Assembly (NCBI GenBank): GCA_030272155.1
Contig: CP126194.1
Coordinates: 3,773,501-3,837,500, forward strand
Direction: 5' to 3'
DNA length: 64,000 nucleotides
Origin: Tetradesmus obliquus
Taxonomy: Eukaryota > Chlorophyta > Chlorophyceae > Sphaeropleales > Scenedesmaceae
Below are positions 18,820 through 39,173 of the stretch, in pieces. The position numbers were made by a program, and so were the translations under genes. The notes below the pieces were generated by a model, which did no database searches, was not told the origin of the DNA, and saw only the letters and a program-made list of their open reading frames with translations. Position 1 is the stretch's first letter. Each line of letters begins with the position of its first letter.

Positions 18820-21800
18820 GGCAGCAGCATTACGGCTGAGGACCTCATTACTGCTGATGGAGTGGCAGGCGGCAAGCAACTGGACCCACAGCAGCAGCAG
18901 CAACAGCATCTTTTCAGCAACGCTCCTGCTGCTGCTGCTGCTGCCGCTGCTGACCCTGCTGCATACACCAAGCACGCGAGCAGTGGCTACCGTGTTGTCA
19001 CGGCAGTGTGGCTGCCATACGGCAATGATGCCCGTGAGCTGTTTTGGTCCTACAAAGTGGCCCTGCGCCACGTCAACTCGCATGCACTGGTCAATGCTGC
19101 AGCCTGGTTCAGGTTTCAAGAAGGCGCACATGACAACAAGTGTAGTGGCAATGCACGCAGCAGCAGCAGCAGCAGCAAGGCTGCTGGGGTGGGCTCCAGC
19201 CCTTTCGCTGGCCGCAGCATTGCTGCAGTGAGGCTGTTTGTGGGGTTCTCGCCAGCAGAAGAAGCACCTGCTGCTGCTGCTGGTGCTGGTGCTGCTGCTG
19301 GTGGTCGTGCTAGTGGTGTCGAGGAGCCCTGGAGTGTGCTGCGGCTGGCAGATGCAGAGCAGCAGCTGCAGGGCAGTGCAGTAAGCGTGCAGGTGCGGTG
19401 TTCGGCAGCGGCAGCAGCGGCAGCAGCGTCGGCTTAGCTGCCACAGCAGCAGCCTGTTGCAGAGTGTAACACGTAACCTGTTCCTGTCATGGCAGGTAGA
19501 CTGTCTCTTTGCATGTATGCAGCATACATGCAGCACTACCGCACAAATGAGGAAATGGGCACGCGTAGCTTTTGCAGTAGCCACGCCTCTGCTGTCTCAA
19601 CCCTGAAACACAATTCAACCTGCCGCAGGCCATCATAGCAGCGCTGCGCCAGGCAGAGGCTTCCCTTGCATCAGCAGGAGCAGCCCCAGGCAGCTTCAGT
19701 AGCCAGACCCTGCAGGGCACTCTGCTCAAAGCCCTAGTCCCTCTCATCAGCCCAACAGCACTACCCACAGCTACAGCCATTGCTGCTGCCGCTGGCAACA
19801 CCGTAAGCACAGCCAGATCTGATCATGTCATCGGCAGCCAAACAACAAGCGGGCTTATTAGCCCAACAGCACCACCCGCAGCTATAGCCATTGCTGCTGC
19901 TGCTGCTTCTGGCTATAGCGCAAGCACATGCAGGGCTAGATCTGTATCTGCATACAAGCAGCTGCTGCGGCTGCTGCAGCTGCCAGCACAGTACGACCCG
20001 CGCTGCTTACCGCAAGGCAGTCAGGTGCTGCCTGCGCCGCCGCATGCAGCAGCAGCAGCAGTGGCGCCTGTGCACCAGCCCGTGGAGAAGGATGCGGTGC
20101 GGCTGCAGGCCAGTGGCGAGGCGCAGTACGCTGGCGATGTGGCGAGCCGCATGCGGGGGCGGCTGCTGTACCTGGCCAGTGAGTGTGATGGTTGATCTAT
20201 TTGTGCGGAAAAGTAGTGTTGTAACCATCACATCCTCTTGTGCGAGCCAGCAGAGTGCCTGTGGCATGCCTCACTCAGGTTATGCTATTGCTGCCTGTTG
20301 GCGTGCAAGGGAAAGAGCTGCACGCCTGCAGTGGTCCTGACAGAGCCACCAGTCAAAAACTGGATTCAGATTCTTCTCCCCGGCAATGCACCCGGCACCT
20401 CTGGTGCGCGGTGCTGTCGTCACTCCTGCGCTGTGCTGTCGTCACTCCTGCAGGCGTCAACTCAACCGAGGCACTCGCATCTCTGCAGCAGCTGGACGCC
20501 TCAGCCGCACTCTCCCTGCCAGGCGTCACCGGCATCATCACAGCAGCAGACATCCCAGGATCAAACTCAGTCATGGGGGCACCGCTGCTGGCAGATGGCT
20601 GCGTTGAATACGTTGGACAGCCTATTGCATTCATTGCGGCTGCCTCTCAGCAGGTGGCTGAGCGTGCGGCGGCGCTGGTGTGTGTTACATACGGGCCGCC
20701 GCCGGCTGGTCGGCGGGCTGTTATAACGTTAGATGACGCGCTGGCGGCGGGGGCGTTTTATGAGGAGCTTGCGCCGCTGATGCAGGTTGCAGCTGTGAAG
20801 CCTGATGCTGCTGCCAGCAGCATCAGCAGCAGTAGCGCAAGCACCCTTGCAGACTCGAGGATGGACTGCAGCAGCACAGCAGGCACCAGTGACGGTGCAG
20901 GCAGCATTGCACGCGGCAGCACGTGTGCTGCTTTCAACAGCAGCACCAGCAGCTGCAGCACAGGAACACCAGCAGACTTGTCTGCAGATGCTGCTGCTGG
21001 CAGGCCTGTCGCCGCTGCTGCTGCTGGTGCTGCTGCTGCCTGTGTGGAGCGGCTAATTGCTGCTGCGCCTCGTCAGATCCTGGGTGGCGGCTATGACCTG
21101 CCTGCGCAGCAGCACTTCTACATGGAGACGCAGGTGGGCTGCTGCTGGTACAGTCGTTGCCGATGCTTGGCTTTGTTGAGCCAGCATCCGGGTTGTGGGC
21201 CTGGCGCAAGCCCTCGTGCATGGCTGGCGGAGAGGACGCAGCATGCTGCCTGTGTGGTGCTGCTTCCATTCTGATCAGTCCTGGCCAGCGCCTAGCATAT
21301 TGCAGCCGATGCTGTGGACCTCCTGCGGTTGCTTGATGCTGCTGTTGCTGAGAATGATGGCTGCCACATCACCTCGCCCGCACACCTGCTGCTGTGACTG
21401 CTGCTGCTGCTGCTGCCATGCCACTGTGCTGCTGCCAGGTTGCTGTGGCTGAGCCGCAAGAGGACGGCTGCCTGCGCCTGACCAGTGCCACGCAGTCGCT
21501 GGATGCTGTGCAGCAGGCAGTGGCTGGCGTGCTGGGGCTGCCCTTCAACAAGGTGGCTGTAGGTGCGTGGCAAGATGCTTGCTGCAGCTAAGGGCAAGGT
21601 TAGGCCAGCCTGGTTGAGTCAGGGAGCAGGCATGCAGATTCTGTGGCGGGGGTGCTGGGGCTGCCCTTCAGAAAGGTGGCTGTAGGTGCGTTGCAAGATG
21701 AGGCAAGAGCCGAGGCCTGTGGCCAGCTAGGCTGATTCAAGTCTGCGTGTTGACGCACTGCTTGTCGGCTGCATGTGGTGGATGTGTATGTGGTGCTGCG

Positions 21801-22671
21801 TCAGCTCGCAGCTAGCACAGGCAGTACAGTGCTGCTAGGGGGTTTGTTTCACGCTAAGCTAGTGCACGACTCACTGTGGCTGATTCCAGCGTACATGCGC
21901 ATGCCTTGCTTGGTGCAACTGCCCACATTCGACTTGTGTTGAGATTGCTCGCTGGTGAACTCATTTGCTGTCCCTGCTAATGTTCATCCACCCCCACTGC
22001 GACAGTCACAAAGCGTTTAGGAGGGGGCTTTGGGGGCAAGGCCAGCCACAGCATGCCTGTGGCTGCCGCTGGGATGGGGCTGCATTACAAGCTCCACACA
22101 GTGCATGGCTCACTGTGGCTTGTTGGCGCGTACATGCACATGACTTGCTTGGCTGACCTGCCCTCTTCCGTTCTGTGCTGCTTATCCAATTGTCTGCCTG
22201 CCTGCCTTTTATCAAAACCCCTGCGACAGTGACAAAGCGCCTGGGAGGGGGCTTTGGTGGCAAGGCCAGCCGCAGCATGCCTGTGGCTGCCGCTGCAGCG
22301 CTGGCGGCAACGCTGTTTGACGCGCCCGTGGTCTACCAGCTGAGCCGCTGCGACGACTTTGCGCAGAACGGCGGGCGCTGCGCGGGGCGGCTGCGTTATG
22401 ATGTGGGCTTTGAAGAAAGTGGCAGGCTGGTGGCCGTGAAAGCAGAGGTGAGCCATCAGTGAGTAATCCTTCGAACTTGCTTTATATCAGGTTAAGGTGC
22501 CAGAGAGCATGTGCGGGGTGGCTGAGATTGGACGCAGGCTTCCAGCAGGCTGGCAGGCTGTTGGCCAGCAATGCGAAGAGGTAAGTGGGACGTGGCTGAG
22601 GATAACGGAATGCAATACGGCTGAGGCCCATATGCCTGCCTGTGCCAAGAACTTGGTACAGATGCATCAAT

Positions 22672-22713
<42 letters not shown>

Positions 22714-23629
22714 CTGTTGCAGGCAAGACTCCTGTAGGTGTGCTGTGCCACCCTGCAGTTGCCACAGTGCATGCTTGGCACGCCAGTACTTTCTGTTATT
22801 GTTGTTTGGACATGACAGAAGCTGCAGGCCAGCCATCTGGCCAGAAGAACCAACATTGCGTGTTGACACGTGTCAACATGCTCTGCTCATGCATTTTTTG
22901 CTCACAGGTGCTGCTTCGTGCGGGAGCCTACCTGGATCTAGCCAGCAACGATGGCGCGCAGCTGCTTGCAGCCAGTGACAGTGCATATGACCTCAGCGGC
23001 CTGCATGTGACTGTGAAGTTTGCGCGCTGCAACCTGCCACCACACACCATTGTGCGGGGCCCTGGGTACCTGCAGGGAGTGATGGTGTTGGAGCAGGTGT
23101 GGACATTGGTGCTAGCCGGATGACTTCGCTGCAGCCCCTCACCTGACAACATTCATGGTTCAGCGCAGCCATATCAACCGTGGTGGTTGGTGCCAGCAAG
23201 TTCTGCAATTATCTTTGCCCTTTTAGTGACATGCTGCGTGTGGTTGTGCTGGCAGAGTAGCAGCTGTGTTTGACCAGCTGTTGTAATGTTTGACCAAGTT
23301 TGACAAACCTGCTGTGGTTTGACTGTTCCGCGCTGCCCTGCATGTTCACTGAAGTGCAGATCCTGGAGCATGTTGCCGCGGCGCTTGGTCTAGACCCTGC
23401 TGCAGTCAAGGCAGCAAACTTCTTGCCAGAAGTGGCAGGACCCACACTTGATGCTGCCCAACAGCAGCAGCAGCAGCAGCCAGCACCAGCACAAGCAGCA
23501 GCAGCTACAGTAGATGCTGCGGCTGGCAGCGTTGCAGGTGCTGCTGCTTTTGCAGCAGACATGGGCAGGCTGTGCCTTGGCTCTGTTTCTGCGCTGAGTC
23601 AGCACACACATCTGCAGCAGCAGCAGCAT

Positions 23630-23685
<56 letters not shown>

Positions 23686-26600
23686 TGGTGTGAGGACCAT
23701 CCTGGGGCGGTACATATCACGTGACAGTTACACACTGCCTCGTGTGTGGGCTGAGCTGCTGCAAGGGGGCCCCGGCACTGCCAGCTATGCAGAGATGCTG
23801 GAGGGTGTGCAGGCGCACAACAGGGACCATGCGTGGAGCAAGCGCGGCATTGCTGTCACGCCAGTCAGGTGAGGTGGTCGCTGCACTTCCTGTGACCAGA
23901 AGCAGCCATTTGTTGTTGTAGCTCTGCTGGTTGCTGCTGATTTTTTTCCCTGCTATGCTTGCGTGTGAGCAAGGCTTACAGAAGGAAAGCAAACGGAACG
24001 CGGCCCTGTGGTGTTGTTAGGGTTGTGCGCTGGCTGCACCATGCAGCTCAAATTGAAGAGCACCGAGCCGCGCTCTCATCGGTTCGAGAGCACGAACGCC
24101 CTGGTAAATCGCAACCAGCATATTATAGAGTTTCAGCACGAGCAAAACCAATGTCTTTCCCCCACCGGGACTCGAACCCGGGTCGCGAGGGTGAGAACCT
24201 CGTATGCTAACCGCCTACACCATGGAGGAGGCAGCCGGCGAGCAGCTCGCCAACTGATCGTGCTGGACATGGCTGGGCCAGCAGCCTTGACGGTGCCGGC
24301 GCGCGCAACAGCAGTAGGGTCGGCTTAGCTAGTTGCAGCGGTAGGAGTGGTTTTCTTTGTGCTGGGATGTAGTGCAGCCTAGTGCTTTGTCATGCAGCAA
24401 CAACAGTGTGGTGTTGCAGCCAGGTCTCTGTAAGTGTTGCTTGCATGCTGTATCATGCCATGCGCTTACATGCTTGCTTTGCCATGCCATGCTGTCCCTT
24501 GGAGGCGACCACTCGGTTGTGCTGCAGCATTGTGGTCATTTTGCTAGGCGGGCAGTGAGGCTGCAGACTTGCTGTTCCGTCGTGATGGTGGTGGGGGACG
24601 GAGTTGGACTGAAACCCTACCTGGCTGGTATGATACGCCAGTTCAAGAGGCTGGAATTGCCTGGCCCCCATGTGTAACAAACACAAACAAAAAGGCTATG
24701 TCGCTTGCTGTTTGGACCATGCCTGCCTTCCCTTGCCCACCCCTGTAACAGACCTCTCCTGTGCAGACCCGCCATGTGTGCCTTCTGCAGCAGAGCAGCA
24801 TGTTGAGGCCATGTTGGTGGCGCGGCTAGGCTGGCGGAATCATCGCGGCAAGACGGTGTCTGTTGCGCAATTGTCTGTTCGTGAAGCTACCTCATTGCAG
24901 CTTGGTCCCCTGCGTGCTGAGCGCCAGGAGCGGCGCACTAGGTTTGTCAGTGTTGCGATCGGTGCGGGTGCCCCGCCCGCGGCGTTGACTCGTGGTTTGC
25001 AATGTGTGGCGGCCGCCCAGGGCGCACTATGGAAGATGCGCTGGGATAATGCGTACAAGGAGACGTATTGGCGGCTGATCATGGATGGCTTGCCTACGTC
25101 GCAGCGCATGCACCAGCAGCATGATACATGCATGTGTGGCGCTGCGTGCCCTGGTCTGGTGCACCATTTTTGGGAGTGCCCAGTTGCGGCAGCGGTGATT
25201 GACAGCCTGCTGTCTGCGTTGCCTGCAACATGGTGTACGCGGGCTGCAGGCCGCCCGCCGCTTGCTATGCGGCATGTCTGGTTGATGCAGCGGCCTCCCG
25301 GCCCTAAGCGGCTCCACCAGGGTGTTTGGGGGGTTATTTGTTTAGCTGCTCTGAATGCCATGGATGTTGGCCGACGGCAGGCTAACACGCTGCACATTCC
25401 GCCGCCCGCGCCTGCTGCGCCGCGGCCGTCTGCGCCGCCGCCGCAATGGCAGGTACCTATTACAGATGTGTTTCAGCCTGCAGCTCTCACTGCTGCGCAG
25501 CAACAGCATAACCAGCTGGTTGAGCAGCGTAGGCAGCAGCAGCTGCTGCAACAACAACAACAGCGACAGCAACTAGTAGCGCAGGTGTTACAGGAGGCGA
25601 AGCAGCAGGCGGTTTTGCGGTTTTGGGAATTGCTTGCTGATTTTGTGGCAATGGAGGCTGCGCCGGCTCATTGGCGTGTTGCGGTGCCTGGAGATCACCC
25701 GTTCTTGCGATCTGATCCAGCACAGCTGCGCATTGTACTGGCGCCCCGCTCTGGTTGACCTTCCTGCTTTTACATGATGTGCTGTCAGTAGTTGTCCAAT
25801 CTCCACTTTCTGGCAAGGCCATGTTGCATGTCGTGTGTCACTGTGCTTGATTTTCCAGCTCTGTGTGTCGCATTGCGTGCTTCTGTGCTTGTCAGCCATG
25901 AGGATTGCAGAAGCAGTAGCACCTTAGTTTGCATGTCACATGCAGTGTCTCCTGTCGGTCCCGCGTGCTCCTGCTTGCTGCAGTCTGGTGTGTACATCAG
26001 TGCCTTGGTGCAATCATGCCAAACACCTATGGTAAGCAGCACCATTGTGCATCCCGCTTGCTGTTTGGACCATGCCTGCCTTCCCTTGTGCGTTTTGTGC
26101 CCTGTGCTTTGAGCACCCTGCTGCTTTTCGTGCTGCACTTCGCACATGCTGCACTGCATGTACTTGTTGGTTTATGGGGAGGTAGGGGCTGCAAGATGCC
26201 TCTGGAGTATTACTTTGGTTGCATCTTGTGGCTTGCTATCGGGTTCTCATGATATGTGAGCTGAAAGAGGGGCAAGTGACTCGCTCTAGGGCGATAGCTT
26301 GCCCACCCCTGTAACAGACCTCTCCTTGTGCGTTTTGTGCCCTGTGCTTTGAGCACCCTGCTGCTTTTCGTGCTGCACTTCGCACATGCTGCACTGCATG
26401 TACTTGTTGGTTTATGGGGAGGTAGGGGCTGCAAGATGCCTCTGGAGTTTTACTTTGGTTGCATCTTGTGGCTTGCTATCAGGTTCTCATGATATGTGAG
26501 CTGAAAGAGGGGCAAGTGACTCGCTCTAGGGCGATAGCTTGCCCACCCCTGTAACAGACCTCTCTCGCTATGTCGTGTGTCACTGTGCTTGATTTTCCAG

Positions 26601-29600
26601 CTCTGTGTGTCTGCGCATTGTACTGGCGCCCCGCTCTGGTTGACCTTCCTGCTTTTACATGATGTGCTGTCAGTAGTTGTCCAATCTCCACTTTCTGGCA
26701 AGGCCATGTTGCATGTCGTGTGTCACTGTGCTTGATTTTCCAGCTCTGTGTGTCGCATTGCGTGCTTCTGTGCTTGTCAGCCATGAGGATTGCAGAAGCA
26801 GTAGCACCTTCGTTTGCATGTCACATGCAACTATGGTCACCGAGATGTCCAGCTGCATGTCCAGGCATGTCCAGTTGCATGGTGTGCAACTGGACATGCC
26901 ATGTGGCATGTCCAGTGTGAGACTGGACATGGCCATGTCCAGCATGCTGCTGGACATCGAGTAGGTGACTGGACACGATACTGGACACGGCAATTGGACT
27001 TTCATAAACTGCCTATTACCGTTATAACAAACGTATTTGATGCAGTAAACAAGTGTTCGCGGCAGGACAGCAATGTCGAGGTGCTTGGGTTGGCGCCCTC
27101 GACCCCCTGGTACCAAGTCACTGCAGCTGCAACTGCCAAGTGGGCAAGTGACCCATGGGCTGTAACACAATCAGCATGTAGCTGCTGCAATACAAACAGA
27201 ATCTGGCAGCTGCTGCAATCACAACAACATCAACAGCACGCAGCTGCTGCTTGACAGCAAAGGCACCCAGCTGCTGCAATTACAACATAAGCAGTGAGGA
27301 CACCACGCGGAACAGCTGCCAAGAACTGCATTGTCAAGATTGCGTCTCTACCACTTGTACAGATGATGCCTATGCCAACTGCATTCACTGTGCATCCTGT
27401 TGCAGGCAGCGCCAGCACAGCAATGCACCAGCTGCCACTACCGCTGCATGCCACCATCTGCCAACGAAAACATACAAGTTCCAGCAGCTGCTGATCGCGC
27501 ACTGGTGTCTGCGTAGCCGGCATCAACTGCGAGTTGGCAGGCTGCCACTGCCTGCATTGATCACAAGTGTAGCGGTTGTTTCAAAGAACACCCCTGCAGC
27601 AGTGCAGCAGAAACAGAGCAGCTGCACTTACATTTGCATGCTGCAGCGTAGGATGTGGCACTTGTTGAGGTTGGCGTTATCTCAATTAAGGTCTGGGCCA
27701 ACCGGCGTTTGCGCGTTGATTGGCGCCCGCCACGCACCACTACATGCAACACTACAGAGCAGCAGCATCTGCGCCAACATAATCGCTGCCACTGAATCGC
27801 ACATATGAGGCAGACTGCTTGCAATGCCACACCGCTCAAGCTCACCAGGAAGTGCATCAGCCATGCCACGCTGCCGGAAAGTCGGCCCCTGTGTCTCTAT
27901 AGGGAAGGTCTGCGCACCAACAGAGGTGTCATGTCAACATATCACAATGGTGGTCTCCAAGCAGGCTGTCTGCTGCTGCATTAGATACAGTGGCGCCATG
28001 CTGACTGCAATCAAGTAGGACCCATGCACGCAGGAAGTAAAAGCTGGATGGGTGGCGCGCACACCACATGGAGGGCATTGCGAGCAAGTATGGTGTGTGT
28101 GAAGTGCGTCGCAAGCACGTTCCACATTATGCAACTGCTGGCCTGCTGGGCATGCTGTCTGCTGCGTGCGTATGTTCATGCACGCGTTGCCAAGAATAAT
28201 CACGACAAGCCCTGCAGCAAGCGGCATGCTCTTGATTGGGGAGAGCTGTCACTTCACAGCAGCAGCAGCAGCAGTAGCAGCAGCTGTAACCTGCTACCTG
28301 TTAGGTTCTAACGTTTTTCGTTATTCTGACCTACCTGTGATGCTGGGAGACGGGCAGCTGACAGGAGCCTGCACACAGCAGCAGCAGCAGCAACGCAGGT
28401 GACACACAACTGCACCTGTGGACAACCTGCATGCACCCAGCCTCTACAGCTGACATAGCACGGCTGATGCTGCTGCACTGCTGCAACTGATCTTGATCTG
28501 GTAATGGTGTGATCATTCCTGCGACAGTACTGCTGCACTGCTGCAACTGTAGCTGCTGCTGCTGCTGCTGTGAGCTGGGCGCCCTAGCAGCTGCAGGGCT
28601 GGGTGCTGTCGTTTCAGCCGCTGCTGATCTGGGTAAGAGTCGCTCACCATGTCATCAAAGTATCAAGATAAGCAGTAGCAGCTCCATGCGCTTTCTACAG
28701 CCTTGAAATCCTGCATTATCAACCTTGCAGCTGCATAGTGCTTCAAGGACTGCTGCTGCTCAATGAGCAGGCGTCTGCAGCCTCACAAACGCCCAATAAC
28801 CGCATTGATCTGTTGTCATTCATTACGCTTTCAGCGATGGTCTCTGCCAGTGGACACGAGCTTGCAGTCTGTTTCAGCCCCGTGCACCATATGCAACGCA
28901 GCAGCAGTGCGCGACACAGGTGCGATCGCTGTAATGCTTCAGCAGTAATCATATTGATCATCGTTTGCAGCTGTTTGCTTACCAGTAGACGAACAGTTCA
29001 CGAGCGTATGCCAACTGACCATTTTGTATTTTAACAAGTGACACACCTTGCAGCAGCGCGCAATGGGGCTATACGGGCCATTAAACTTACTGTAATAGAA
29101 CTAAACGATGTGTTTGGAAAGGCTGCTGCTTCGGCAGCGTGGGAAAGTCGTGCAATGCTGTAGTGACATGCTGATCTTCGCCTTGAGGCGCTGTCGTGTC
29201 ATAAGACACCATAAATGCTGCTTTATATGATGATTATTTGCACTATCGCACGCTTTGGCGTGAATTTTAAGCCGGTGTTGACGTGATATCGACAAACCCT
29301 ACAGCAAGCCCATGGGCTGGCCAGCTGACGTGCTGGCTGTTCAGCGACACAGTATAAGCGGCATACATGCAACAACACCTACTTGCGGCGTTTTAGCCGG
29401 GTATAGTGCCGTACAACGCATCAGCAGCAGCACATGTCCAGTTGCAGGCAGACTGCCAGTCCAGTGGACCTGCAACTGGACATGCAAACCCACCAACTGG
29501 ACACGATTTGGTGCCACTGGACATGCCTGGACATGCAGCTGGACATCTCGGTGACCATAGTGACTGCGCAGTGTCTCCTGTCGGTCCCGCGTGCTCCTGC

Positions 29601-32600
29601 TTGCTGCAGTCTGGTGTGTACAGCAGTGCCTTGGTGCAATCATGCCAAACACCTATGGTAAGCAGCACCATTGTGCATCCCGCTTGCTGTTTGGACCATG
29701 CCTGCCTTCCCTTGTGCGTTTTGTGCCCTGTGCTTTGAGCACCCTGCTGCTTTTCGTGCTGCACTTCGCACATGCTGCACTGCATGTACTTGTTGGTTTA
29801 TGGGGAGGTAGGGGCTGCAAGATGCCTCTGGAGTTTTACTTTGGTTACATCTTGTGGCTTGCTATCGGGTTCTCATGATATGTGAGCTGAAAGAGGGGCA
29901 AGTGACTCGCTCTGGGGCGATAGCTTGCTCACCCCTGTAACAGACCTCTCTGTGTGTCGCATTGCGTGCTTCTGTGCTTGTCAGCCATGAGGATTGCAGA
30001 AGCAGTAGCACCTTAGTTTGCATGTCACATGCAGTGTCTCCTGTCGGTCCCGCGTGCTCCTGCTTGCTGCAGTCTGGTGTGTACAGCAGTGCCTTGGTGC
30101 AATCATGCCAAACACCTATGGTAAGCAGCACCATTGTGCATCCCGCTTGCTGTTTGGACCATGCCTGCCTTCCCTTGTGCGTTTTGTGCCCTGTGCTTTG
30201 AGCACCCTGCTGCTTTTCGTGCTGCACTTCGCACATGCTGCACTGCATGTACTTGTTGGTTTATGGGGAGGTAGGGGCTGCAAGATGCCTCTGGAGTTTT
30301 ACTTTGGTTGCATCTTGTGGCTTGCTATCGGGTTCTCATGATATGTGAGCTGAAAGAGGGGCAAGTGACTCGCTCTAGGGCGATAGCTTGCCCACCCCTG
30401 TAACAGACCTCTCTCTTGGCTAGGGAAGCTAGTGGATAGAGGGTTGGCACCTGCTTCGTCTGTGCGGCGTTTCACTGGTGTGGCTGCTCGCTTTTTGGCG
30501 GGCAGGCCGGCTGAAGGTGGCTTTGGTGCTTTGCCATGGCTTGAACACATACGTGCACGGCATGCTTGGTGGGGCGCGCAGTTTGCTACTGCGCCGCCCG
30601 ACACTGAGCTGCCTTGGATCCGCATTGGGCGGGAGCTATTGCGTTCTAAGCATAAATGGTGGGGCCCATTGTCCTTGTTTGACAGCTTTGAAGACACGCA
30701 AACGCCGATGGAGCCGTCGCAGGCGTTCCCTCAGCAGTCCCTCCCTCCCCCGCCGCTGCGCCGCATGATTGCTGGTCTTCAAGCGCTAGGCAAAGTTTGT
30801 GATGTGAAGGCGCTGGCGCCTGCGGCGCCTGCCCCTGCACTGCCGCCGCCACATCCTCAACAGCTGTCAGACGTGCAGCAGTTGCGTGCACAGCTACAGG
30901 CTGTGCAGGATGCGCCGGTGCTGCAGCCCGGGGCTTGGTGTAGTTTGGCTCCTGTCTTTGCTAACCCTTTTTTGCAAGCAATGGTTGGGTTTGTGCCCGG
31001 TGGGCTGCAAATGCATCCCGTGCCCTCTGTGCGCGGGCCACATGCATGTTCTGGCGGCAAGTGTCGGCCGCGCATCCGCACTGTGGCCGATCTCTGTCGC
31101 GCTTGGCATGTGATCCAGCATGCTGCACGGCAGCAGCTGCCACACCCATTGCTGCCGTACGGCTCCAACTTCAGCAATGCAGACAACGAATCGGCAGATT
31201 TGACAGACTTGGTTAACTTGCTGCCCGTGCCGTGGCATCGGGCTGCCTTGGTTGTTGTGCGGCATCCTGCAGCAGACCGGCCCTGGCCGCCTGCGGCTGT
31301 GCCAGACCCGCCGTGTATGCCTTCTGCAGCAGAGCAGCATGTTGAGGCCATGTTGGTGGCGCGGCTAGGCTGGCGGAATCATCGCGGCAAGACGGTGTCT
31401 GTTGCGCAATTGTCTGTTCGTGAAGCTACCTCGTTGCAGCTTGGTCCCCTGCGTGCTGAGCGCCAGGAGCGGCGCACTAGGTTTGTCAGTGTTGCGATCG
31501 GTGCGGGTGCCCCGCCCGCGGCGTTGACTCGTGGTTTGCAATGTGTGGCAGCCGCCCAGGGCGCACTATGGAAGATGCGCTGGGATAATGCGTACAAGGA
31601 GACGTATTGGCGGCTGATCGTGGATGGCCTGCCTACGTCGCAGCGCATGCACCAGCAGCATGATACATGCATGTGTGGCGCTGCGTGCCCTGGTCTGGTG
31701 CACCATTTTTGGGAGTGCCCAGTTGCGGTGGCGGTGATTGACAGCCTGCTGTCTGCGTTGCCTGCAACATGGTGTACGCGGGCTGCAGGCCGCCAGCCGC
31801 TTGCTATGCGGCATGTCTGGTTGATGCAGCGGCCTCCCGGCCCTAAGCGGCTCCACCAGGGTGTTTGGGGGGTTATTTGTTTAGCTGCTCTGAATGCCAT
31901 GGATGTTGGCCGACGGCAGGCTAACACGCTGCACATTCCGCCGCCCGCGCCTGCTGCGCCGCGGCCGTCTGCGCCGCCGCCGCAATGGCAGGTACCTATT
32001 ACAGATGTGTTTCAGCCTGCAGCTCTCACTGCTGCGCAGCAACAGCATAACCAGCTGGTTGAGCAGCGTAGGCAGCAGCAGCTGCTGCAACAACAACAAC
32101 AGCGACAGCAACTACTAGCGCAGGTGTTACAGGAGGCGAAGCAGCAGGCGATTTTGCGGTTTTGGGAATTGCTTGCTGATTTTGTGGCAATGGAGGCTGC
32201 GCCGGCTCATTGGCGTGTTGCGGTGCCTGGAGATCACCCGTTCTTGCGATCTGATCCAGCACAGCTGCGCATTGTACTGGCGCCCCGCTCTGGTTGACCT
32301 TCCTACTTTTACATGATGTGCTGTCAGTAGTTGTCCAATTTCCACTTTCTGGCAAGGCCATGTTGCATGTCGTGTGTCACTGTGCTTGATTTTCCAGCTC
32401 TGTGTGTCGCATTGCGTGCTTCTGTGCTTGTCAGCCATGAGGATTGCAGAAGCAGTAGCACCTTAGTTTGCATGTCACATGCAGTGTCTCCTGTCGGTCC
32501 AGATCCGGATCCCGCGTGCTCCTGCTTGCTGCAGTCTGGTGTGTACAGCAGTGCCTTGGTGCAATCATGCCAAACACCTATGGTAAGCAGCACCATTGTG

Positions 32601-35600
32601 CATCCCGCTTGCTGTTTGGACCATGCCTGCCTTCCCTTGTGCGTTTTGTGCCCTATGCTTTGAGCACCCTGCTGCTTTTCGTGCTGCACTTCGCACATGC
32701 TGCACTGCATGTACTTGTTGGTTTATGGGGAGGTAGGGGCTGCAAGATGCCTCTGGAGTTTTACTTTGGTTGCATCTTGTGGCTTGCTATCGGGTTCTCA
32801 TGATATGTGAGCTGAAAGAGGGGCAAGTGACTCGCTCTAGGGCGATAGCTTGCCCACCCCTGTAACAGACCTCTCTCCCGGTAGGACCTCTCTCGGTAGG
32901 AGAGGGGCAAGTGACTCGCTCTAGGGCGATAGCTTGCCCACCCCTGTAACAGACCTCTCCCAGGTAGGGCATCTTGTGGCTTGCTATCGGGTTCTCATGA
33001 TATGTGAGCTGAAAGAGGGGCAAGTGACTCGCTCTAGGGCGATAGCTTGCCCACCCCTGTAACAGACCTCTCTCGGTAGGGCGACTCGCTCTAGGGCGAT
33101 AGCTTGCCCACCCCTGTAACAGACCTCTCTCTCTCTCCCCGGGTAGGGCCACCCCTGTAACAGACCACTCTCGGTAGGGCTCCTGCGGGGTTGGGGAGAC
33201 CGCCTCCGTGTAACAAATGCAATGCAATGCAAGGGCTCTCCCGGGTGACCTCTCTCCCGGGTAGGGCTTGCTATCGGGTTCATGATATGTGAGCTGAAAG
33301 AGGGGCACGTGACTCGCTCTAGGGCGATAGCTTGCCCACCCCTGTAACAGACCTCTCCCGGTTAGGGTGTAACAGACCTCTCGCCGGGTAGGGTACCTGG
33401 CTGGTATGATACGCCAGTTCAAGAGGCTGGAATTGCCTGGCCCCCATGTGTAACATACACTAACAAAGGGTAGGGTGTCTGTTGCGCAATTGTCTGTTCG
33501 TGAAGCTACCTCTCTCGGGTAGGTGTGTACAGCAGTGCCTTGGTGCAATCATGCCAAACACCTATGGTAAGCAGCACCATTGTGCATCCCGCTTGCTGTT
33601 TGGGCCATGCCTGCCTTCCCTTGTGCGTTTTGTGCCCTGTGCTTTGAGCACCCTGCTGCTTTTCGTGCTGCACTTCGCACATGCTGCACTGCATGTACTT
33701 GTTGGTTTATGGGGAGGTAGGGGCTGCAAGATGCCTCTGGAGTTTTACTTTGGTTGCATCTTGTGGCTTGCTATCAGGTTCTCATGATATGTGAGCTGAA
33801 AGAGGGGCAAGTGACTCGCTCTAGGGCGATAGCTTGCCCACCCCTGTAACAGACCTGTCCCGGGCGATTCTTCGATTTTTGGCGCTTTTTTTCCACACTG
33901 CCGGTACGGGCGTTGCACAACTATCCTCTGTTTCTCCTGTGGACATTTTGATTGCGCGCGAGCAGTTGTGTGCTGAGCTGGGTTGGCAGCGACCAGGGGC
34001 AGATGGTTTTATACGTCTGGCTGATCTGCAAGTTGCTGATGCCACGAAGCTACACCGTCTTGCTGCGCTTGATGCCATTGCCCCCCGCCATGCTGCCTTT
34101 GTTACTCGGGTTAGAGCCCTGGATGCCCTGCCGATGGCAGTCAGCCTGCCTGCAGTGCAGTCGGTGTTGTCTCGTTGGTGGCAGGTGCGGGTGGCTAACA
34201 TGTACAAGGAAGCGGCGTGGCGCTTGGCTTTGGATGCATTCCCTACTGCTCAACGTATGCAGACTACTGCTGCGTGTGCAGCATGTTCTGCTGCAGGGCC
34301 TGGGGTGGAGCATCATTTTTGGACATGTCCTGTTGCTGTGGCGGTGCGGCGTGAGGTGGGAAGTCAACTAAGGGCGTTCAACTTGTTGCCGGCAGGTGCT
34401 GTACTGCCGTGCCGAGCTATATGGTTGGCGTGTCCCCCCCATAACGCTGCACATCGGTTGGTGTGGGACATGGTCTGTCTTGCAGCAGTGCATGCTTTTG
34501 AAAAAGGCTGCGGCAGGGGCAGCGTGGGCTGTGTCAAGTGACCTTGGGGTACCACAGCTGGTGGACAAGTGGTTGTGAGAGCAGCAGTAGGTGCTTTTTG
34601 GGATGCGCTTGCAGACTTTGCTGCTACGGCTAGGGTGCCGTCACGGTATAGAAATCGGCTGCTCACACAACAGCCTTTTATTGCCTGGCATACTGTGTTG
34701 CGTGGCAATGGTTTGTGTGTGGTGCGGCGGTGATGGCCTTCTTCTCACTGCATGTACTTGCTTTCTCTGAGCTTCTGACACGCCAGAGCTAGCCGTCTTG
34801 CTTTTGCAGGAGCTGTGAGTTGCTGTATCGCTGCTGCAATATGTAGTTGTGCGGCCCTTGCAGCAGCTGGCTTGTACTCTGCTCTCCTCCCAGTTCGTCG
34901 CCTCAGGCCACCGCCTGCCAGGCTGTGTTTCTGCTGGTGGGTGTTGTTCTGCGGATTCAGCCCGCCCGCTGCACTGCGTAAAGTGCAGTTTGCTGTCACT
35001 GACAATGTTTACACTAGTCCTACCGTTGTTTAGCATCAACACTGCGTGTGCTGTGACTGACGGCTTTGCCTGCAAGGCCATATGTCAAGTTACACACACA
35101 GAGACTTTCTGGGGTGAGTCTCCTTGAGTGACAGCCTGTTTTGCTGAGTCATCTGCGACGTTCCAGGTTTTTGGGTGTTCGTTGCAACGTAGTTGCCTGT
35201 GCACATCGTGTAACCCCTCTTCTTCTTTTTCCACACTTTGGGTGTTCGTTGCAACGTAGTTGCCTGTGCACACCGTGTAACCCCTCTTCTGTTTTTCCAC
35301 ACTTCTGCTTCAGGTTGTGTTGTGCCCTGGCTGGTGCGCATTGCTGTCCGGTACAGTTGCTCTGGGAATCCAGCCTGCGCCATGTACTGCAGGAAGTACA
35401 GCTTGCTGCCACTCAGTGACTGGTGCTACTTATACTTTCTTGACCTCCTTGTGCTGTTGACATGTTCTTTGCCGTGTGTTGCGACTGGCGGCCTTTCCTC
35501 CAGACTGCATGCCATGCCACGTGCACACGAAGGGGGGCCAGGGGGCCATCTCTCAGGCCCATAACCAAGTGGAAGCCGTTCCTTGTTCTTCTCTTACTTA

Positions 35601-38600
35601 CGCGCGAAGAGCATAGGCTGAAGCAGGCTTCCCTGCTTCTGATGCATAGAATTTGACAGAAGGAAAGTCCGGTTCGAGCCGGTTCGAACCGGTACCGGGG
35701 GCCATGATCGCGTTGTGCAAGACATCCTGCAGGCGGGAGGCAGGAGCCTGGCCACGAGCCGGTAGCCGTTGGGAGGCATGAGCTGGTTGTGCAGTTAGCG
35801 GGGCGCTAACTTTACAGCCACCACGTTGCTCTACACTGGCTACCGGCTCTTGGCCAGGTTTCTTGCCTCCAACCTGCAGAATTGCTGCACGCTGCCTCCA
35901 TAAAGATGCAGCTGATTGTCACATCACCAACTTGAAAGCCTTGCTGCATGCAGTGCTCCTGTTTAGCCTAGTGGTTTTTCGTTTTCATTGATGCAGCCGG
36001 TGGATACCCACCCCCATGGATACCCTCAGGAGCTTCCCGCGGGGGTTTATGAAAATCCCTAAGATGAGCTGTATATATTTTCTCCCAAACTTCATGGGGT
36101 TGCTTTGAATGCTGCAGATGACAGTGGTCCAATCAACTTGTACCCGGCTTGAATTTTTGCAGCTGTTTCCGCTCTGCTTGAAGAAACATGATCATCTTCA
36201 TGAAGCGGCGCGCGGCCTGTGCAGGGGACTCCATTTGCATTTTTCGGTCACCTGCAGACTGGGCGTCTGCCAAGCGAATGCCACGCGCCATGGTGCTTGC
36301 CTTTCAACTGCAAAAACCTCAACAGGTTCTTACAGTCAAATGGCATTTGCAGCACAGTGCATGACATTGGAGTATCAGACTGGGTACTGATGCTTGCTGC
36401 CAGAACTTGGCGCTCTTTATAATCATTCATCAAGGGTTGTTCCTCCCAGTCCTATGTAGCAGGCATTCGCGTTTGAGGGTTTCTGTCGCGTCAGATTTTG
36501 GTGGGTTGGCATCTGAACAGGGCCTTTGGGGATGCAGTGCTCAAACAATGTAAACTGGTGAAAATAGCTGATTTTGCTAAATATCACAACTTCTGTTCTT
36601 CAGCAGAGCGCGTGTGTAGCGTTGCATACAGTGACTTGCAGATAGCCCCCAGCATGAGTTGGTCCTTGGTGACAAGCTCCGCTGGCTCTGCGCGTGTTCA
36701 TGCTATGGTGTGCAGGTTTGACTGCTCGCCTGCTGCAGTGTCGGCTGCCATCAGCGTGTATGCTGACGGCTCGGTGCTGGTGACGCACGGCGGCATAGAG
36801 ATGGGCCAAGGCCTCAGCACCAAGGTGAGCAGCACGCCTCTGCATGCCACACAGTGTGTGCATCCACAGCACCACTGTCTCAATGGGAAGCTTATGGCAC
36901 AGAGTGTAGCTCCTGGGCAGCTGTGGCAGGCTTTGTGGCAGCGTATCCTTGTGCTTTGAGCGCTGTCCTTGCGTTGCAGCCGCCTTCCCCTGCATTTGTA
37001 GTGCTTGTGATGGCAGGAGCAGATGTACGCTTGGCGGCTTCTACATATCTGCATCATTCAACTCCAGTATCATTGCCATCTGTGCAAATGCTGACTCATC
37101 CAACTAACACTACCCCTGCAGGTCAAGCAGGCAGCTGCTGCTGCACTCAGCCAGCTGCTGCCGGAGGAGCAGCGCCCCCTGCCGCTGTTGCTGCTGCGCC
37201 TGGCCCCCAGCAGCAGCGAGGTGGTGCCTGGTGGGGGGCCCTCCTGGAGCAGCACCGCCAGCGAGGGCAACTGCCAGGCGGTGATGAATGCTGCTGCCAA
37301 GGTGGTGGCTCAGATGGCGCCGTACGCAAAGGTGGGCGGTACTGCAGCGGTGACGGCTGTGGCGACAGAGGCAGTGTCTGCAGTCCATGGCACGATGCGC
37401 CAACCGGCACGTACACATCACCAGCAGTTGATACGTACTGATTGTCCCTCATGTGCTTCCCCTTGCTATCAACATCAGCTTGCGGCTTACCGATGTGTGC
37501 GGGTGACACACAGCGGACACTTCAGATATCAACACCGCTTTCTGCAACACATGCTTTGCAGGTGGGAACTGATGGCCTGGCCACCTGGCGAGCTACCCTA
37601 GCAGCCATCTGCACACACAGGACACATCACCAACACTCACTGTAACACTCGCTCCAACGTGGACTGTTAAACATGCATTGCAGGTGGGAGTCCATGGCCT
37701 GGCCACCTGGCGAGCTACCCTAGCAGCCATCTGCAGACACGTGACACATCACCAACGCTCACTCTAACACTCGTTCTAACATGCACTGCAGGTGGGAGCC
37801 GATGGCCTGGCCACCTGGCGAGCTACCCTAGCAGCCATCTGCAGACACGTGACAAATCACCAACCCTCACCGTATCACTCGCTCTAACATGCACTGCAGG
37901 TGGGAGCCGATGGCCTGGCCACCTGGCGAGATACCCTTGCAGCCATCTGCCCTGACGTCGGCTTCGCACCAAACGCTGCCATGCTGTCTGCCTACGGCTG
38001 GTTTGATGGCAGCACCGGCAGCGGCGCCGCCAAGCAGGCTGTGCAGTACAGTGCCTTTGGTGCTGCGCTGAGTGAGGTGGAGCTGGATGTGTTAACTGGG
38101 GAGCGGCGGGTGGTGGCCAGCAGCATCTTGTATGACTGCGGCTACCCATTGAACCCCGGCATTGATTTGGGGCAGGTGAGCGGCTGTGCAAGAGCCTTTG
38201 GTGTTGATGTATTCAATGTTGTGGGAGTGTGTGCGTTGTTTGACGGCTGCTATGCAGCACTCAATGTCACAGGCATGATCTGTGGCAGGTGAGTGCAGCG
38301 GGTTGCGTAAAGTGTGCTGCGCTGAGTGAGGTTGAGCTTGATGTGCTGACTGGGGAGCGGCGAGTGGTGGCCAGCAGCATCCTGTATGACTGCGGCTGCC
38401 CGCTCAACCCTGGCATTGATTTGGGTCAGGTGAGCATGAATACATTCCTTTGTGTGTGTTGCCTGTGTTTGCGGTGATGCAGCACTGGCTGTGATGTTTG
38501 GCACGGCTATGCAGCACTGAAAGCGATAGCATCAGTTGTTGCGCGCTGCTGCTGCCAATCCCCATGCGATAACAATGCATGCCTGTTGATGACTTTTGCT

Positions 38601-39173
38601 TACGCTGCGGCGCTGCTGTCCTCTGTCTCTCTGCACTGCGTGCAGGTTGAGGGTGCATTTGTGATGGGCCTAGGGATCATGCTGAGTGAAGATGTGCAGG
38701 TACAACCCACCACAGGCAAGCTGCTCAGCGATACAACTTGGAAGTATAAGATACCTCACTATGACCTCATTCCCAAGAACTTCACAGTGAGCTTCTTGAA
38801 AGATGCCCCAAACCCCAGGGGCATTCTCAGCAGTAAGGCCAGTGGCGAGCCGGCTCTGATGGCCAGCACGAGTGCGCTGATGGCGCTGCAGGCTGCTGCG
38901 GGGGCGGCAGCCAGGGAGGTTGCAGGGCTGGCAGGTGCTGCTGCCGGGGTTACAGCCCAGGCTGGGATGCAGCAACAACAGCACCAGCAGCAGCAGCAGC
39001 AGCAGCAGAGTAGTGGTACTGAAAGTACTGGAGCATATGGGGGTGCTGGTGCTGGTGGTGGCTGGTGTGTGCTGTCTGCTCCTGCCACGCCGGTGAAGCT
39101 GAAGGCTGCTGTGGGCAGCTTCAGCATTGCTGATGCACTGGAGGCAGCACTGGCTGCATGTGTTGTAGGCTGA
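15390..39173 (+). CDS. Molybdo-flavoenzyme, xanthine dehydrogenase/aldehyde oxidase family
   Basis: Nineteen exons: 15390-15503, 15731-15806, 16313-16432, 16679-16899, 17151-17517, 17933-18346, 18494-19380, 19629-19802, 19959-20178, 20454-21133, 21439-21562, 22230-22447, 22491-22580, 22908-23096, 23360-23868, 36620-36824, 37122-37331, 37900-38175, 38646-39173. Their sum is divisible by three, about 1873 residues, against about 1330 in the family; the excess is Q/S/A runs. Order seen: N-terminal 2Fe-2S (VGCGEGGCGACTV), second 2Fe-2S (QCGYCTPG...GNLCRCTGW), FAD domain (VAGNTGAG, AATLGGHFG), flavoprotein C-domain, then molybdopterin domains (GEAQYAGDV, RLGGGFGGKAS, HGGIEMGQGL, KASGEPAL). The catalytic Glu of GEP is present. 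By my alignment, the two xanthine-binding positions (bovine Glu802 and Arg880) are Ala and Gln, so an aldehyde-oxidase-like substrate is possible. Exon 9 start is tentative. Intron 15 is about 12.75 kb. Confidence 0.88.
17343..17396 (+). repeat. GCA tract coding poly-Ala in the molybdo-flavoenzyme
   Basis: A run of GCA codons interrupted once by GCGGCA gives about 17 alanines in exon 5, in the linker between the iron-sulfur and FAD domains. The same trinucleotide in other exons of this gene is read as AGC (Ser, 18781-18818) and CAG (Gln, 18684-18717 and 23608-23682). Confidence 0.9.
19749..19912 (+). repeat. Tandem duplication around the exon 8 donor
   Basis: A block reading AGCCCAACAGCAC, then CCAGCTA-like sequence and GCCATTGCTGCTGC occurs at about 19750-19800 in exon 8 and again at about 19860-19912 in the following intron, each followed by a short AGCACA-containing stretch. 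The second copy may be non-coding. Confidence 0.7.
21534..21700 (+). repeat. Copy of the exon 11 3' end and donor inside intron 11
   Basis: The end of exon 11, GGGGCTGCCCTTCAACAAGG then TGGCTGTAG and its GTGCGT donor, is repeated about 117 bp downstream with AGA instead of ACA. The downstream copy therefore carries a second intact-looking donor site with the same sequence. Confidence 0.85.
21850..22300 (+). repeat. ~225-bp duplication copying the exon 12 acceptor and 5' part
   Basis: The first copy (about 22003-22075) carries CGACAG|TCACAAAGCG and codes the same molybdenum-site loop, GGGFGGKAS, as true exon 12 at 22230. It has His in place of the following Arg and loses similarity soon after. 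Upstream flank (GACTCACTGTGGCTGATTCC at 21868) also recurs at about 22107, so exon edge and flanking intron were duplicated together. Confidence 0.85.
23604..23684 (+). repeat. CAG tract coding ~24 glutamines
   Basis: Exon 15 contains CAGCAGCAGCAGCATCAG followed by an almost pure CAG run of over 20 units. It lies in the molybdopterin half of the enzyme, where family members have a structured domain, so the run presumably forms an exposed loop. Confidence 0.9.
24144..24147 (-). terminator. RNA polymerase III T-run after tRNA-Glu
   Basis: On the minus strand, TTTT lies about 10 nt downstream of the tRNA 3' end. This fits a pol III terminator and supports the tRNA as a functional gene rather than a tRNA-derived SINE fragment. 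Confidence 0.6.
24157..24229 (-). tRNA. tRNA-Glu (CTC anticodon)
   Basis: A 73-nt cloverleaf reads on the minus strand. The acceptor strand TCCTCCA pairs with TGGGGGA (one T-G wobble). The D-arm starts at GTGT; the anticodon stem CGAGG/CCTCG encloses TTCTCAC, with CTC as anticodon. The T-arm is CCGGG-TTCGAGT-CCCGG, and the discriminator is A. Internal A and B boxes (TGGTGTAGGCGG-like and GGTTCGAGTCC) are intact, and there is no intron. It sits antisense inside intron 15 of the molybdo-flavoenzyme gene, about 90 bp from the first LINE insertion. Confidence 0.93.
24318..24690 (+). mobile_element. LINE family B, 5'-truncated 3' end
   Basis: Sequence from about TCGGCTTAGCTAGTTGCAGC to CCCCCATGTGTAACAAACAC is also found in reverse orientation at about 58953-59325. 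It ends in TGTAAC followed by an (ACAAAC)-like tail. No protein domain is seen in this short piece. It begins about 90 bp beyond the 5' end of the tRNA gene. Confidence 0.8.
24760..26313 (+). mobile_element. LINE family A copy A1, 5'-truncated
   Basis: It starts inside the ORF2 C-terminal region (CCGCCATGTGTGCC) and keeps an open frame to 25758. That frame codes the same protein as the longer copy at 30432-32297, including the zinc-knuckle motif CMCGAACPGLVHHFWECP. The 3' UTR follows, with a terminal hairpin and CTGTAACAGACCTCTC. Reverse transcriptase is missing. The stretch 24691-24760 before it is an internally deleted family A scrap. Confidence 0.85.
24763..25758 (+). pseudogene. LINE ORF2 C-terminal fragment (copy A1)
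   Basis: About 330 in-frame residues match the last half of the 621-residue frame at 30432-32297 with only a few substitutions. It has the Cys-x-Cys-x8-His-x4-Cys knuckle and a Q-rich tail, ending LRIVLAPRSG. It lacks endonuclease and reverse transcriptase domains, so it is a dead-on-arrival copy. Confidence 0.85.
26314..26563 (+). mobile_element. LINE family A copy A2, 3' tail only
   Basis: A severely truncated copy starting at TTGTGCGTTTTGTGCCC and ending in the family A terminal hairpin and TGTAACAGACCTCTC. It directly follows the end of copy A1 in the same orientation. Confidence 0.85.
26564..29950 (+). mobile_element. LINE family A copy A3, split by a DNA transposon
   Basis: Family A 3' sequence runs 26564-26829, is interrupted by the inverted-repeat element at 26830-29561, and resumes at 29562 with CAGTGTCTCCTGTCGGTCCC, continuing to the hairpin tail near 29950. 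The first 60 bases are a rearranged piece that repeats CACTGTGCTTGATTTTCCAG. Confidence 0.85.
26830..29561. mobile_element. DNA transposon with 46-bp perfect terminal inverted repeats
   Basis: The left end (26830-26875, starting ACTATGGTCACCGAG) is the exact reverse complement of the right end (29516-29561). Inside both ends are many direct and inverted copies of TGTCCAGT/ACTGGACA, typical of subterminal transposase-binding repeats. The 2732-bp body has no clear transposase; small frames such as 27251-27808 (+) and 27561-27869 (-) are unassigned, so it may be non-autonomous or decayed. Target duplication is not clean: flanks read TCACATGC and GACTGCGC before AGTGTC. Confidence 0.87.
29951..30412 (+). 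mobile_element. LINE family A copy A4, 3' UTR only
   Basis: Starts TGTGTGTCGCATTGCGTGC in the family A 3' UTR and runs without interruption through the terminal hairpin and CTGTAACAGACCTCTC. It follows A3 head to tail, with the junction inside the CTCT tract. Confidence 0.87.
30413..32875 (+). mobile_element. LINE family A copy A5, longest family A copy in the intron
   Basis: Contains the 621-codon open frame 30432-32297 and the complete family A 3' UTR with hairpin tail. It is 5'-truncated after the reverse transcriptase domain. A 12-bp insertion (GGTCCAGATCCGGATCCCGC region, about 32500) distinguishes its 3' UTR from the other copies. Confidence 0.87.
30432..32297 (+). CDS. LINE ORF2 C-terminal region (L1-like), copy A5
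   Basis: A 621-residue open frame. Its first 300 residues (WLEHIRARHAWWG, WHVIQHAARQQLPHP) match the spacing of the post-RT region in the intact LINE frame at 61127-64000. Residues about 425-445 hold CMCGAACPGLVHHFWECP, a Cys-x-Cys-x8-His-x4-Cys knuckle like the zf-RVT region of plant and algal L1-type LINEs. A Q-rich stretch and LRIVLAPRSG end the frame. No endonuclease or reverse transcriptase motifs are present, so it cannot mobilise itself. The open frame without stops suggests recent insertion. It is not a host gene. Confidence 0.83.
   Translation: MDRGLAPASSVRRFTGVAARFLAGRPAEGGFGALPWLEHIRARHAWWGAQFATAPPDTELPWIRIGRELLRSKHKWWGPLSLFDSFEDTQTPMEPSQAFPQQSLPPPPLRRMIAGLQALGKVCDVKALAPAAPAPALPPPHPQQLSDVQQLRAQLQAVQDAPVLQPGAWCSLAPVFANPFLQAMVGFVPGGLQMHPVPSVRGPHACSGGKCRPRIRTVADLCRAWHVIQHAARQQLPHPLLPYGSNFSNADNESADLTDLVNLLPVPWHRAALVVVRHPAADRPWPPAAVPDPPCMPSAAEQHVEAMLVARLGWRNHRGKTVSVAQLSVREATSLQLGPLRAERQERRTRFVSVAIGAGAPPAALTRGLQCVAAAQGALWKMRWDNAYKETYWRLIVDGLPTSQRMHQQHDTCMCGAACPGLVHHFWECPVAVAVIDSLLSALPATWCTRAAGRQPLAMRHVWLMQRPPGPKRLHQGVWGVICLAALNAMDVGRRQANTLHIPPPAPAAPRPSAPPPQWQVPITDVFQPAALTAAQQQHNQLVEQRRQQQLLQQQQQRQQLLAQVLQEAKQQAILRFWELLADFVAMEAAPAHWRVAVPGDHPFLRSDPAQLRIVLAPRSG
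32876..33523 (+). repeat. Mosaic of LINE tail fragments joined by a CGGGTAGGG-like linker
   Basis: At least ten short fragments lie in tandem: family A tails truncated at different points, a family D tail (GGTTGGGGAGACCGCCTCCG with an AATGC repeat), a family B tail (TACCTGGCTGG to GTGTAACATACAC), and a bit of family A ORF (TGTCTGTTGCGCAATTGTC). Most are preceded by CTCTC(C)CGG(G)TAGGG. One junction reads CCGGTTAGGG. Confidence 0.85.
33524..33857 (+). mobile_element. LINE family A copy A6, 3' UTR only
   Basis: Starts TGTGTACAGCAGTGCC and ends in the family A hairpin tail. It is the last family A copy of the intron before a family C copy begins at CGATTCTTCG. Confidence 0.85.
33858..35300 (+). 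mobile_element. LINE family C copy with two tails
   Basis: It carries the ORF2 C-terminus and the 3' UTR of the element that is intact at 60628-64000 on the other strand. The tail reads GCACATCGTGTAACCCCTC and TTCTTC. A second, very short tail copy (TTTGGGTGTTCGTTGCAACG to GTGTAACCCC) follows to about 35300, separated by TTTTTCCACAC, which also follows the second tail. Confidence 0.85.
33870..34735 (+). pseudogene. LINE ORF2 C-terminal fragment, family C, frameshifted
   Basis: It matches the last part of the LINE protein at 61127-64000 (VDILIAREQLC, SRWWQVRVANMYKEAAWRLA, HHFWTCPVAVAVRRE) with a few substitutions. It shifts frame after HAFEKG near 34510 and again near 34565; the end of the protein (RYRNRLLTQQPF region) continues in another frame. 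Knuckle CAACSAAGPGVEHHFWTC is intact. Confidence 0.87.
35301..35640 (+). other. Unassigned repeat-like sequence between LINE remnants
   Basis: AT-richer sequence starting TTCTGCTTCAGGTTGTG, with no match elsewhere in the window. It may be the 3' UTR of a further LINE family or original intron DNA. Confidence 0.3.
35790..36010 (+). pseudogene. Decayed reverse transcriptase fragment of another LINE family
   Basis: Across two frames the sequence reads LLYTGYRLLARFLASNLQ, then ITNLKALLHAVLLFSLVVF. This matches in order the LLNYDYRILAKLLANRL, 'IRLLQ' and VVVFTDF segments of the intact RT at 61-64 kb. Stops and frameshifts break it. The sequence from here to the acceptor at 36619 has no further recognisable domain. 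Confidence 0.5.
37560..37955 (+). repeat. Four tandem copies of the exon 18 acceptor and 5' edge
   Basis: Units of about 109-118 bp start with GCAGGTGGGA(A/G)(C/T)... and run through GGCCTGGCCACCTGGCGAG, CTACCC and GCAGCCATCTGC, followed by GACACATCACCAAC-like intron sequence. They begin near 37558, 37680, 37789 and 37897; only the last continues into the full exon. Each earlier copy has an AG acceptor in the same phase but no obvious donor. Confidence 0.9.
38059..38437 (+). repeat. Copy of the exon 18 3' half and donor in intron 18
   Basis: The end of exon 18 (GTGCTGCGCTGAGTGAGG through GGCATTGATTTGGGGCAG) with its GTGAGC donor is repeated at about 38313-38437 at roughly 90% identity. The copy stays open, coding CAALSEVELDVLTGERR and the rest with Tyr changed to Cys, so it could act as an alternative 3' end of the exon. 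Confidence 0.88.

Follow-up and report, generated by a model that had tools for sequence, protein, structure and literature searches.

Serial insertion of LINEs at the tails of earlier copies probably enlarged an intron of a molybdenum-enzyme gene in Tetradesmus obliquus

A molybdenum-enzyme gene, xanthine-dehydrogenase/aldehyde-oxidase-like, is interrupted by a very long intron (intron 15) in a 64,000-nucleotide stretch of the Tetradesmus obliquus genome (here the window, C4:3773501-3837500, within a genome of 104.66 Mb and 17 contigs). We conclude, with a probability of about 0.76, that a shorter intron of this host gene was enlarged by serial insertion of long interspersed nuclear elements (LINEs) at the tails of earlier copies, together with a CACTA-type transposon. 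The anatomy of the intron was obtained by matching it to copies from other loci and by direct reading of the gaps. About 19 LINE segments were found, including stubs of ~15-110 nt; they belong to three main families (A, B and C) and all lie on the strand of the gene (+). LINE DNA makes up ~7,959 of the 12,847 bp (62%), this being 8,068 bp matched less 109 bp in four chance hits inside the CACTA-type element. The CACTA-type transposon accounts for 21%, single-copy sequence for ~14% (449 + 1,411 bp) and junction and filler sequence for ~300 bp. A sequence-only reading of this stretch had described the intron as mostly LINE; same-strand, 5'-truncated copies do fill the share given above, but the 2.7-kb CACTA-type element and ~1.9 kb of unique DNA had been overlooked.

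The stacking seen in the intron was also found elsewhere in the genome. A pattern for the LINE A 3'-end was found at 280 places (147 + 133, one mismatch allowed), and its reversed control at none. The 100 A ends listed are those matched exactly on C1 and onwards into part of C5. Of these, 73 lay in stacks, that is, within 6 kb of another end, where random sets gave 5.7 on average (maximum 18 of 1000); strand agreed in 52 of the 53 pairs of neighbours. Twenty multi-copy stacks were present among these ends, 12 of them on C4 and 5 on C2, and the largest was the one in intron 15, with 9 exact A ends. When 80 A ends outside the intron were fetched, a same-strand LINE was present within the next 60 nt downstream at 49 of them, and a LINE on the opposite strand only at 1.

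Three shuffling tests bear on how these stacks were formed. Pairs that were identical over their first 60 nt, being tandem duplicates, were dropped beforehand; of 71 junctions, 46 then had at least 6 nt in common with another junction of their stack (26.2 on average after shuffling, maximum 44 of 1000). Where two tails lie close together, one motif recurred after both in 21 of 30 cases, some of which overlap each other (shuffled mean 5.1, maximum 12 of 2000), and a left-right flank match of at least 6 nt was found at 12 of 28 whole insertions, 3 of the 12 being in intron 15 (shuffled mean 2.9, maximum 9 of 2000). Because the three tests agree, serial insertion with target-site duplications is favoured, and in the simplest reading most copies would be separate target-primed insertions, each made beside an earlier tail and flanked by such a duplication. 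The sequence-only reading had already proposed that LINEs landed time and again on the tails of older copies, and this is supported. The junction motifs tended to be stack-specific and were mostly GC-rich; in intron 15 the motif is GGTAGGG, and examples from other stacks are GGCCAGGG (C4:2.19 Mb), CGGCCGC (C4:4.08 Mb) and CCCGGCGA (C2:8.64 Mb). At one locus (L006) the same CCAGCACGGG stood after an A tail and a B tail, and a C stub of intron 15 ended in GGGTAGGG, so that the LINE families share a site.

The intron had been placed at 23869..36619, with a length of 12.75 kb. Its donor is correct (CAG/GTGAGG at 23868/23869), but the acceptor had been set 96 bp too early. With an exon start at 36620, 38 query residues stand between the matched blocks, versus 11 in human xanthine dehydrogenase (XDH), and an acceptor at 36715/36716 (TGTGCAG/G TTT GAC) takes away 32 of these 38. 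Splicing from 23868 (AG) to 36716 (G TTT GAC) gives TPV-R-F where XDH has IPTKF. A paralogue on C3 has the same arginine codon split (CG/G TAC), there by an intron of 175 bp (5151427-5151601). The acceptor is therefore best placed at 36715/36716, given the XDH spacing and the split of the same codon in the paralogue, whose short intron also suggests that the ancestral intron was shorter. Since 23869-24317 and ~35305-36715 match only themselves, intron 15 would still measure ~1.9 kb without its transposons.

The claim that the exons keep reading phase 2 across intron 15 was borne out, both sides being intact and in phase, and the reading frame of the XDH-like exons 16-19 stays open as far as the stop at 39171-39173. 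From these intact exons we infer that the gene is quite probably still spliced across the intron. Alternatively, the gene could be broken, with transcripts ending at LINE poly(A) signals within the intron and exons 16-19 surviving as a relic. The motif TGTAA, which we take to be the green-algal poly(A) signal, was found 24 times on the sense strand of the intron, versus ~9 expected from base composition, as a broken gene would have it; antisense TGTAA was likewise above expectation (16 versus ~8). Tandem exon pieces nearby (37542-38001, 38314-38435) could disturb splicing, and since the A and C insertions seem to be of recent date, a gene broken not long ago would present an identical picture. 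However, exons 16-19 have stayed open, in phase and XDH-like and have kept the GEP motif (SKASGEPAL, aligned to SKAVGEPPL in the comparison with PDB chain 2e1q), and we regard a broken gene as unlikely, though still a serious alternative. Nothing indicated that exons 1-15 and exons 16-19 belong to different loci: the unique sequences at the two ends of the intron are single-copy, and a search with the gene sequence running from the last part of exon 15 through exon 19 matched only its own locus and two paralogues of 44-50% identity. Nor did this search give any sign of a second, intact copy of the gene.

Template jumping, in which the reverse transcriptase moves from RNA to RNA during one insertion event and leaves a same-strand chain of truncated copies, would also account for the uniform orientation, and it draws on several observations that weigh against separate insertions. 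Five of the 13 A junctions read in the intron (24744, 26310, 26550, 29936 and 30399) have 0-5 unmatched bases between the tail and the next copy and no repeated motif; they may be template jumps, or the duplication may be hidden inside the CT tail. The A fragment at 33474-33512 is internal and not a 3' end, and a flanking match of 6 nt was absent at 16 of the 28 insertions. Serial insertion also has against it the 30 of 80 fetched A ends with no LINE downstream and the control, in which 12 of 80 host pieces had a LINE hit (CAG-rich repeats, we take it), so that part of the association is due to chance. Motif copies also vary within a stack, GGTAGGG is only partly matched by the host sequence that borders the A stack on its right (CCGGGCGATT), and the A 3' untranslated region (UTR) itself has GGTAGGG, though not beside a tail. 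On the other hand, the motif repeats after close tails (21/30) and the matching flanks (12/28) are expected of separate insertions and not of template jumping, and the segments diverge unequally from their reference copies (B 95.6%, A 97-100%, C 97-99.7%). We consider template jumping improbable.

The intron could instead sit in a Zepp-like centromeric LINE cluster of C4, as it lies near the middle of this contig (3.80 of 7.76 Mb) and, of the 54 A ends that C4 has in the list, 15 fall at 3.75-4.0 Mb, more than in any other 250-kb bin. A stacks were, however, found on C4 at twelve places spread over 1.28-6.81 Mb, and the gene's own exons 16-19 separate the intron stack from the next one. With so many stacks on C4, a single centromeric cluster including that of the intron was not supported, and we think it quite improbable. 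That a few LINE copies were multiplied by tandem duplication or unequal recombination is very hard to credit for the intron stack, in which the 13 A junctions read all differ in their downstream sequence and copies of A, B and C stand side by side; a stack unit at C4:1288868-1289970 (551 bp, three repeats with identical junctions) does seem to have been tandemly duplicated at a later time.

Under serial insertion, ~19 LINE segments, most of them separate insertions, and one CACTA-type transposon would have swelled a shorter intron. A new copy would enter at the boundary between the tail of an earlier copy and the DNA downstream, nearly always in the same orientation, and would duplicate a short stretch of that downstream DNA; tail and target would thereby be re-created at the new 3' end, leaving the site usable again. 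Pairing of a CU-rich RNA tail with a nicked GA-rich strand, or a preference of the endonuclease for the tail/target boundary, could guide the choice of site. It is a tentative proposal, with somewhat less than an even chance of being right, that this landing site renews itself, tail and target duplication rebuilding the target in each round, and that it is common to the three LINE families, is not tied to centromeres and can operate in a working gene. If true, a single hit can turn a locus into an oriented stack that keeps growing and preserves a record of how it arose; here a short intron would have become one of 12.8 kb inside a working gene, one route of intron growth in a compact genome. 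The stubs and the repeated flanking motifs let stacking order and mechanism be read from the sequence, and tail-guided targeting is thereby open to direct test.

As to the elements themselves, a long family A copy at another locus (L049) has an 854-aa open reading frame (ORF1) with no Pfam match and an L1-type ORF2 of 1,519 aa, with RVT_1 at E 1.2e-29 and a weak Exo_endo_phos (endonuclease) match at E 0.0011, below the curated cut-off. The two long A bodies in intron 15 are 99.7% and 98.9% identical to this copy; the second, at 30423..32877, is 97.2% identical to locus L005 in its 3' UTR. An extra 12 bp (~32499-32511) was observed in the 3' UTR of one A copy, which measures 616 bp versus 604 bp at five other loci. 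In LINEs A, B and C alike, a TGTAA motif stands close to the 3' end and precedes a short tail, (CT)n in family A and CCTCTTCT in family B; B ends read TGTAACCCCTCTTCT and C ends TGTAACAAACACAAACAAA. After TGTAACAGACC, 91 of 93 A junctions read start with TCTC, mostly with more CT, under a search pattern that required CCTCTC and so selects CT tails and would miss others; a few (L079, L127) carry short A runs further on. Matches to family C commonly start at 24318 (24320 in three copies), and a short full-length element was not concluded from this, as a window copy cut at 24318 gives the same picture.

The segments of the intron are given in Table 1. In the stub run, (CT)n and variant forms of GGTAGGG lie between one stub and the next, and the D-like tail was identified by reading alone. 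The zf-RVT match of the B copy (PF13966, E 2e-4) is below the curated cut-off. TTTTTCCACAC also precedes this copy, at 33888-33898, and so stands before, between and after the B copies of the intron. The tRNA-Glu gene was considered as part of a repeated short interspersed element and rejected as such, the 449 bp around it being single-copy; its RNA fold is no better than that of shuffles (z 0.02), which has little meaning for a tRNA. The foldback in the other single-copy part (~35724-35882) is an imperfect inverted self-match of 75%. A second LINE stack, on the minus strand and with A, B and C copies, was observed at 58700-61960 of the window. The first ~7 kb of contig C9 hold a CACTA-type copy and two LINE A ends (C9:3054-7097), suggesting that some stacks may be subtelomeric.

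The element at 26830-29560 was rejected as a LINE and is a CACTA-type transposon, an assignment made because of its inverted ends, its copies in the genome and the 3-bp duplications at part of them. At least 40 genome copies were scored, including that of the window, and nearly all are 97-100% identical. The inverted ends are CACTATGGTCACC, and CACTA...TAGTG was seen at both ends in 7 of 8 copies viewed; the window copy (L041) is without the first C, and the 5' end of the L048 copy was not found by the exact string used. Three-bp duplications were present at 5 of the 8 copies viewed (L042-L046) and were not clear in L041, L047 and L048. The element is probably non-autonomous; the one long ORF searched in it (208 aa) had no Pfam match.

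Table 1. Coordinates of intron 15, its segments and the adjoining exons (positions of the window)
Feature	Coordinates	Strand	Basis
Exon 15 (ILEHVAAALG...KRGIAVTPV, split codon AG/ at end)	23360..23868	+	homology; donor GTGAGG at 23869
Intron 15, 12,847 bp, phase 2	23869..36715	+	donor/acceptor read; XDH homology; paralogue intron
Single-copy intron sequence	23869..24317	+	self-match only, genome search
tRNA-Glu (CTC), antisense to gene	24157..24229	-	ARAGORN; Rfam RF00005 56.2 bits
LINE C, 5'-truncated, tail TGTAACAAACACAAACAAA	24318..24691	+	99.7% to L054; at least 44 other copies
LINE A remnant, internal deletion, tail TGTAACAGACCTCTC	24702..24758	+	A3 334-367 joined to 577-603
LINE A copy, 1.56 kb	24764..26324	+	99.0-99.7% to reference pieces
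LINE A 3' fragment, 243 bp	26324..26566	+	match to other loci; tandem repeat
LINE A copy, short 5' duplication (26570-26611), split by CACTA-type element	26570..29951	+	A3 107-148, 5-223, 221-604
CACTA-type DNA transposon, probably non-autonomous, 2.73 kb	26830..29560	.	copies, inverted ends
LINE A 3' fragment, 470 bp	29948..30417	+	match to other loci
Longest intron LINE A copy, 2.46 kb (2,455 bp), 3' part of ORF2 and 3' UTR	30423..32877	+	
LINE stub run (A, C, D-like tail, one internal A fragment; ~15-106 nt)	32878..33521	+	
LINE A 3' fragment, 335 bp	33522..33856	+	match to other loci
LINE B copy, 1.33 kb, zf-RVT	33898..35226	+	95.6% to L034
LINE B stub (51 nt, 35240-35290) between two TTTTTCCACAC copies	35226..35302	+	
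Single-copy intron sequence, imperfect foldback	35305..36715	+	self-match only (query to 36619); 36620-36715 read directly
Exon 16 (split Arg, FDCSPAAVSAAISVYADGSVLVTHGGIEMGQGLSTK)	36716..36824	+	XDH homology

The host gene product has Pfam MoCoBD_1 and MoCoBD_2 matches above cut-off, and the best PDB chain for its exons is 2e1q (E 4.7e-54). All other introns had been put below about 0.6 kb. This holds for the four modelled neighbours of intron 15 (263 bp before it; 297, 568 and 470 bp after it), but the 5' half of the gene was modelled in part, and the largest gap between coding anchors there is 1.42 kb (19024-20443) and holds open frames, so that the statement is borne out only partly. Four tandem copies of ~108-122 bp were observed at 37542-38001; each includes the beginning of exon 18 (VGxxGLATWR...) and a splice acceptor, and the first three reach stops and look like decoy exons. 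More duplicated exon pieces of this gene, 90-91% identical, lie at 38060-38181 / 38314-38435 and at 21994-22071 / 22218-22295. As a paralogue (L146, C14:3922601-3924900) also shows several repeated exon-like pieces (LDACRQINERLKPYR, GWSFAQMATQAYM, LSAHGFYATPEV), such tandem copying of exons may be typical of this gene's family.

The trebouxiophyte frame in which the stack had at first been set was not supported. A D1 protease exon is identical in 89 of 89 residues to PDB 1fc6, the source of which is presumably Scenedesmus (now Tetradesmus) obliquus, a chlorophycean (Chlorophyceae, Sphaeropleales), so that the host is very probably not a trebouxiophyte. In the literature searched we found no report of LINE stacks in Tetradesmus introns, which does not prove their absence from print.

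The CACTA-type element resembles known CACTA DNA transposons in its CACTA...TAGTG termini, with 3-bp duplications at 5 of 8 copies viewed though not clearly at that of the window, and differs in being probably non-autonomous, with no Pfam match for the long ORF tested. SaTar arrays of guayule and rice are described as linear multi-element arrays whose members do not interrupt one another, with microsatellite-type targeting (PMC5907723). The present stacks are similar in these respects; however, SaTars are Mu-like DNA transposons, whereas the present elements are LINEs.

Zepp and ZeppL LINE clusters are known from Chlorella, Coccomyxa and Chlamydomonas. These LINEs form stacks via insertion into earlier copies, with frequent 5' truncation and mostly 3' ends (PMC8226300), and probably serve as the centromeric repeats in Coccomyxa and Chlamydomonas (PMC8226300, PMC3446292, PMC11005252), Zepp clusters being strictly one per chromosome (PMC3446292). 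The present LINEs are similar in being L1-type and in stacking 5'-truncated copies on one strand at the site of earlier ones, and different in that their stacks occur at many places per chromosome and inside the intron of a gene. Several LINE families also share one stack here, and the family A tail is (CT)n, whereas that of Zepp is poly(A). The Zepp-like clustering that had been suggested thus stands as regards behaviour but not chromosomal distribution, LINE-A stacks being found at twelve places on C4. Zepp-type clustering serves to explain green-algal centromeres, and a similar behaviour is met here at many sites of the chromosomes and within a gene.

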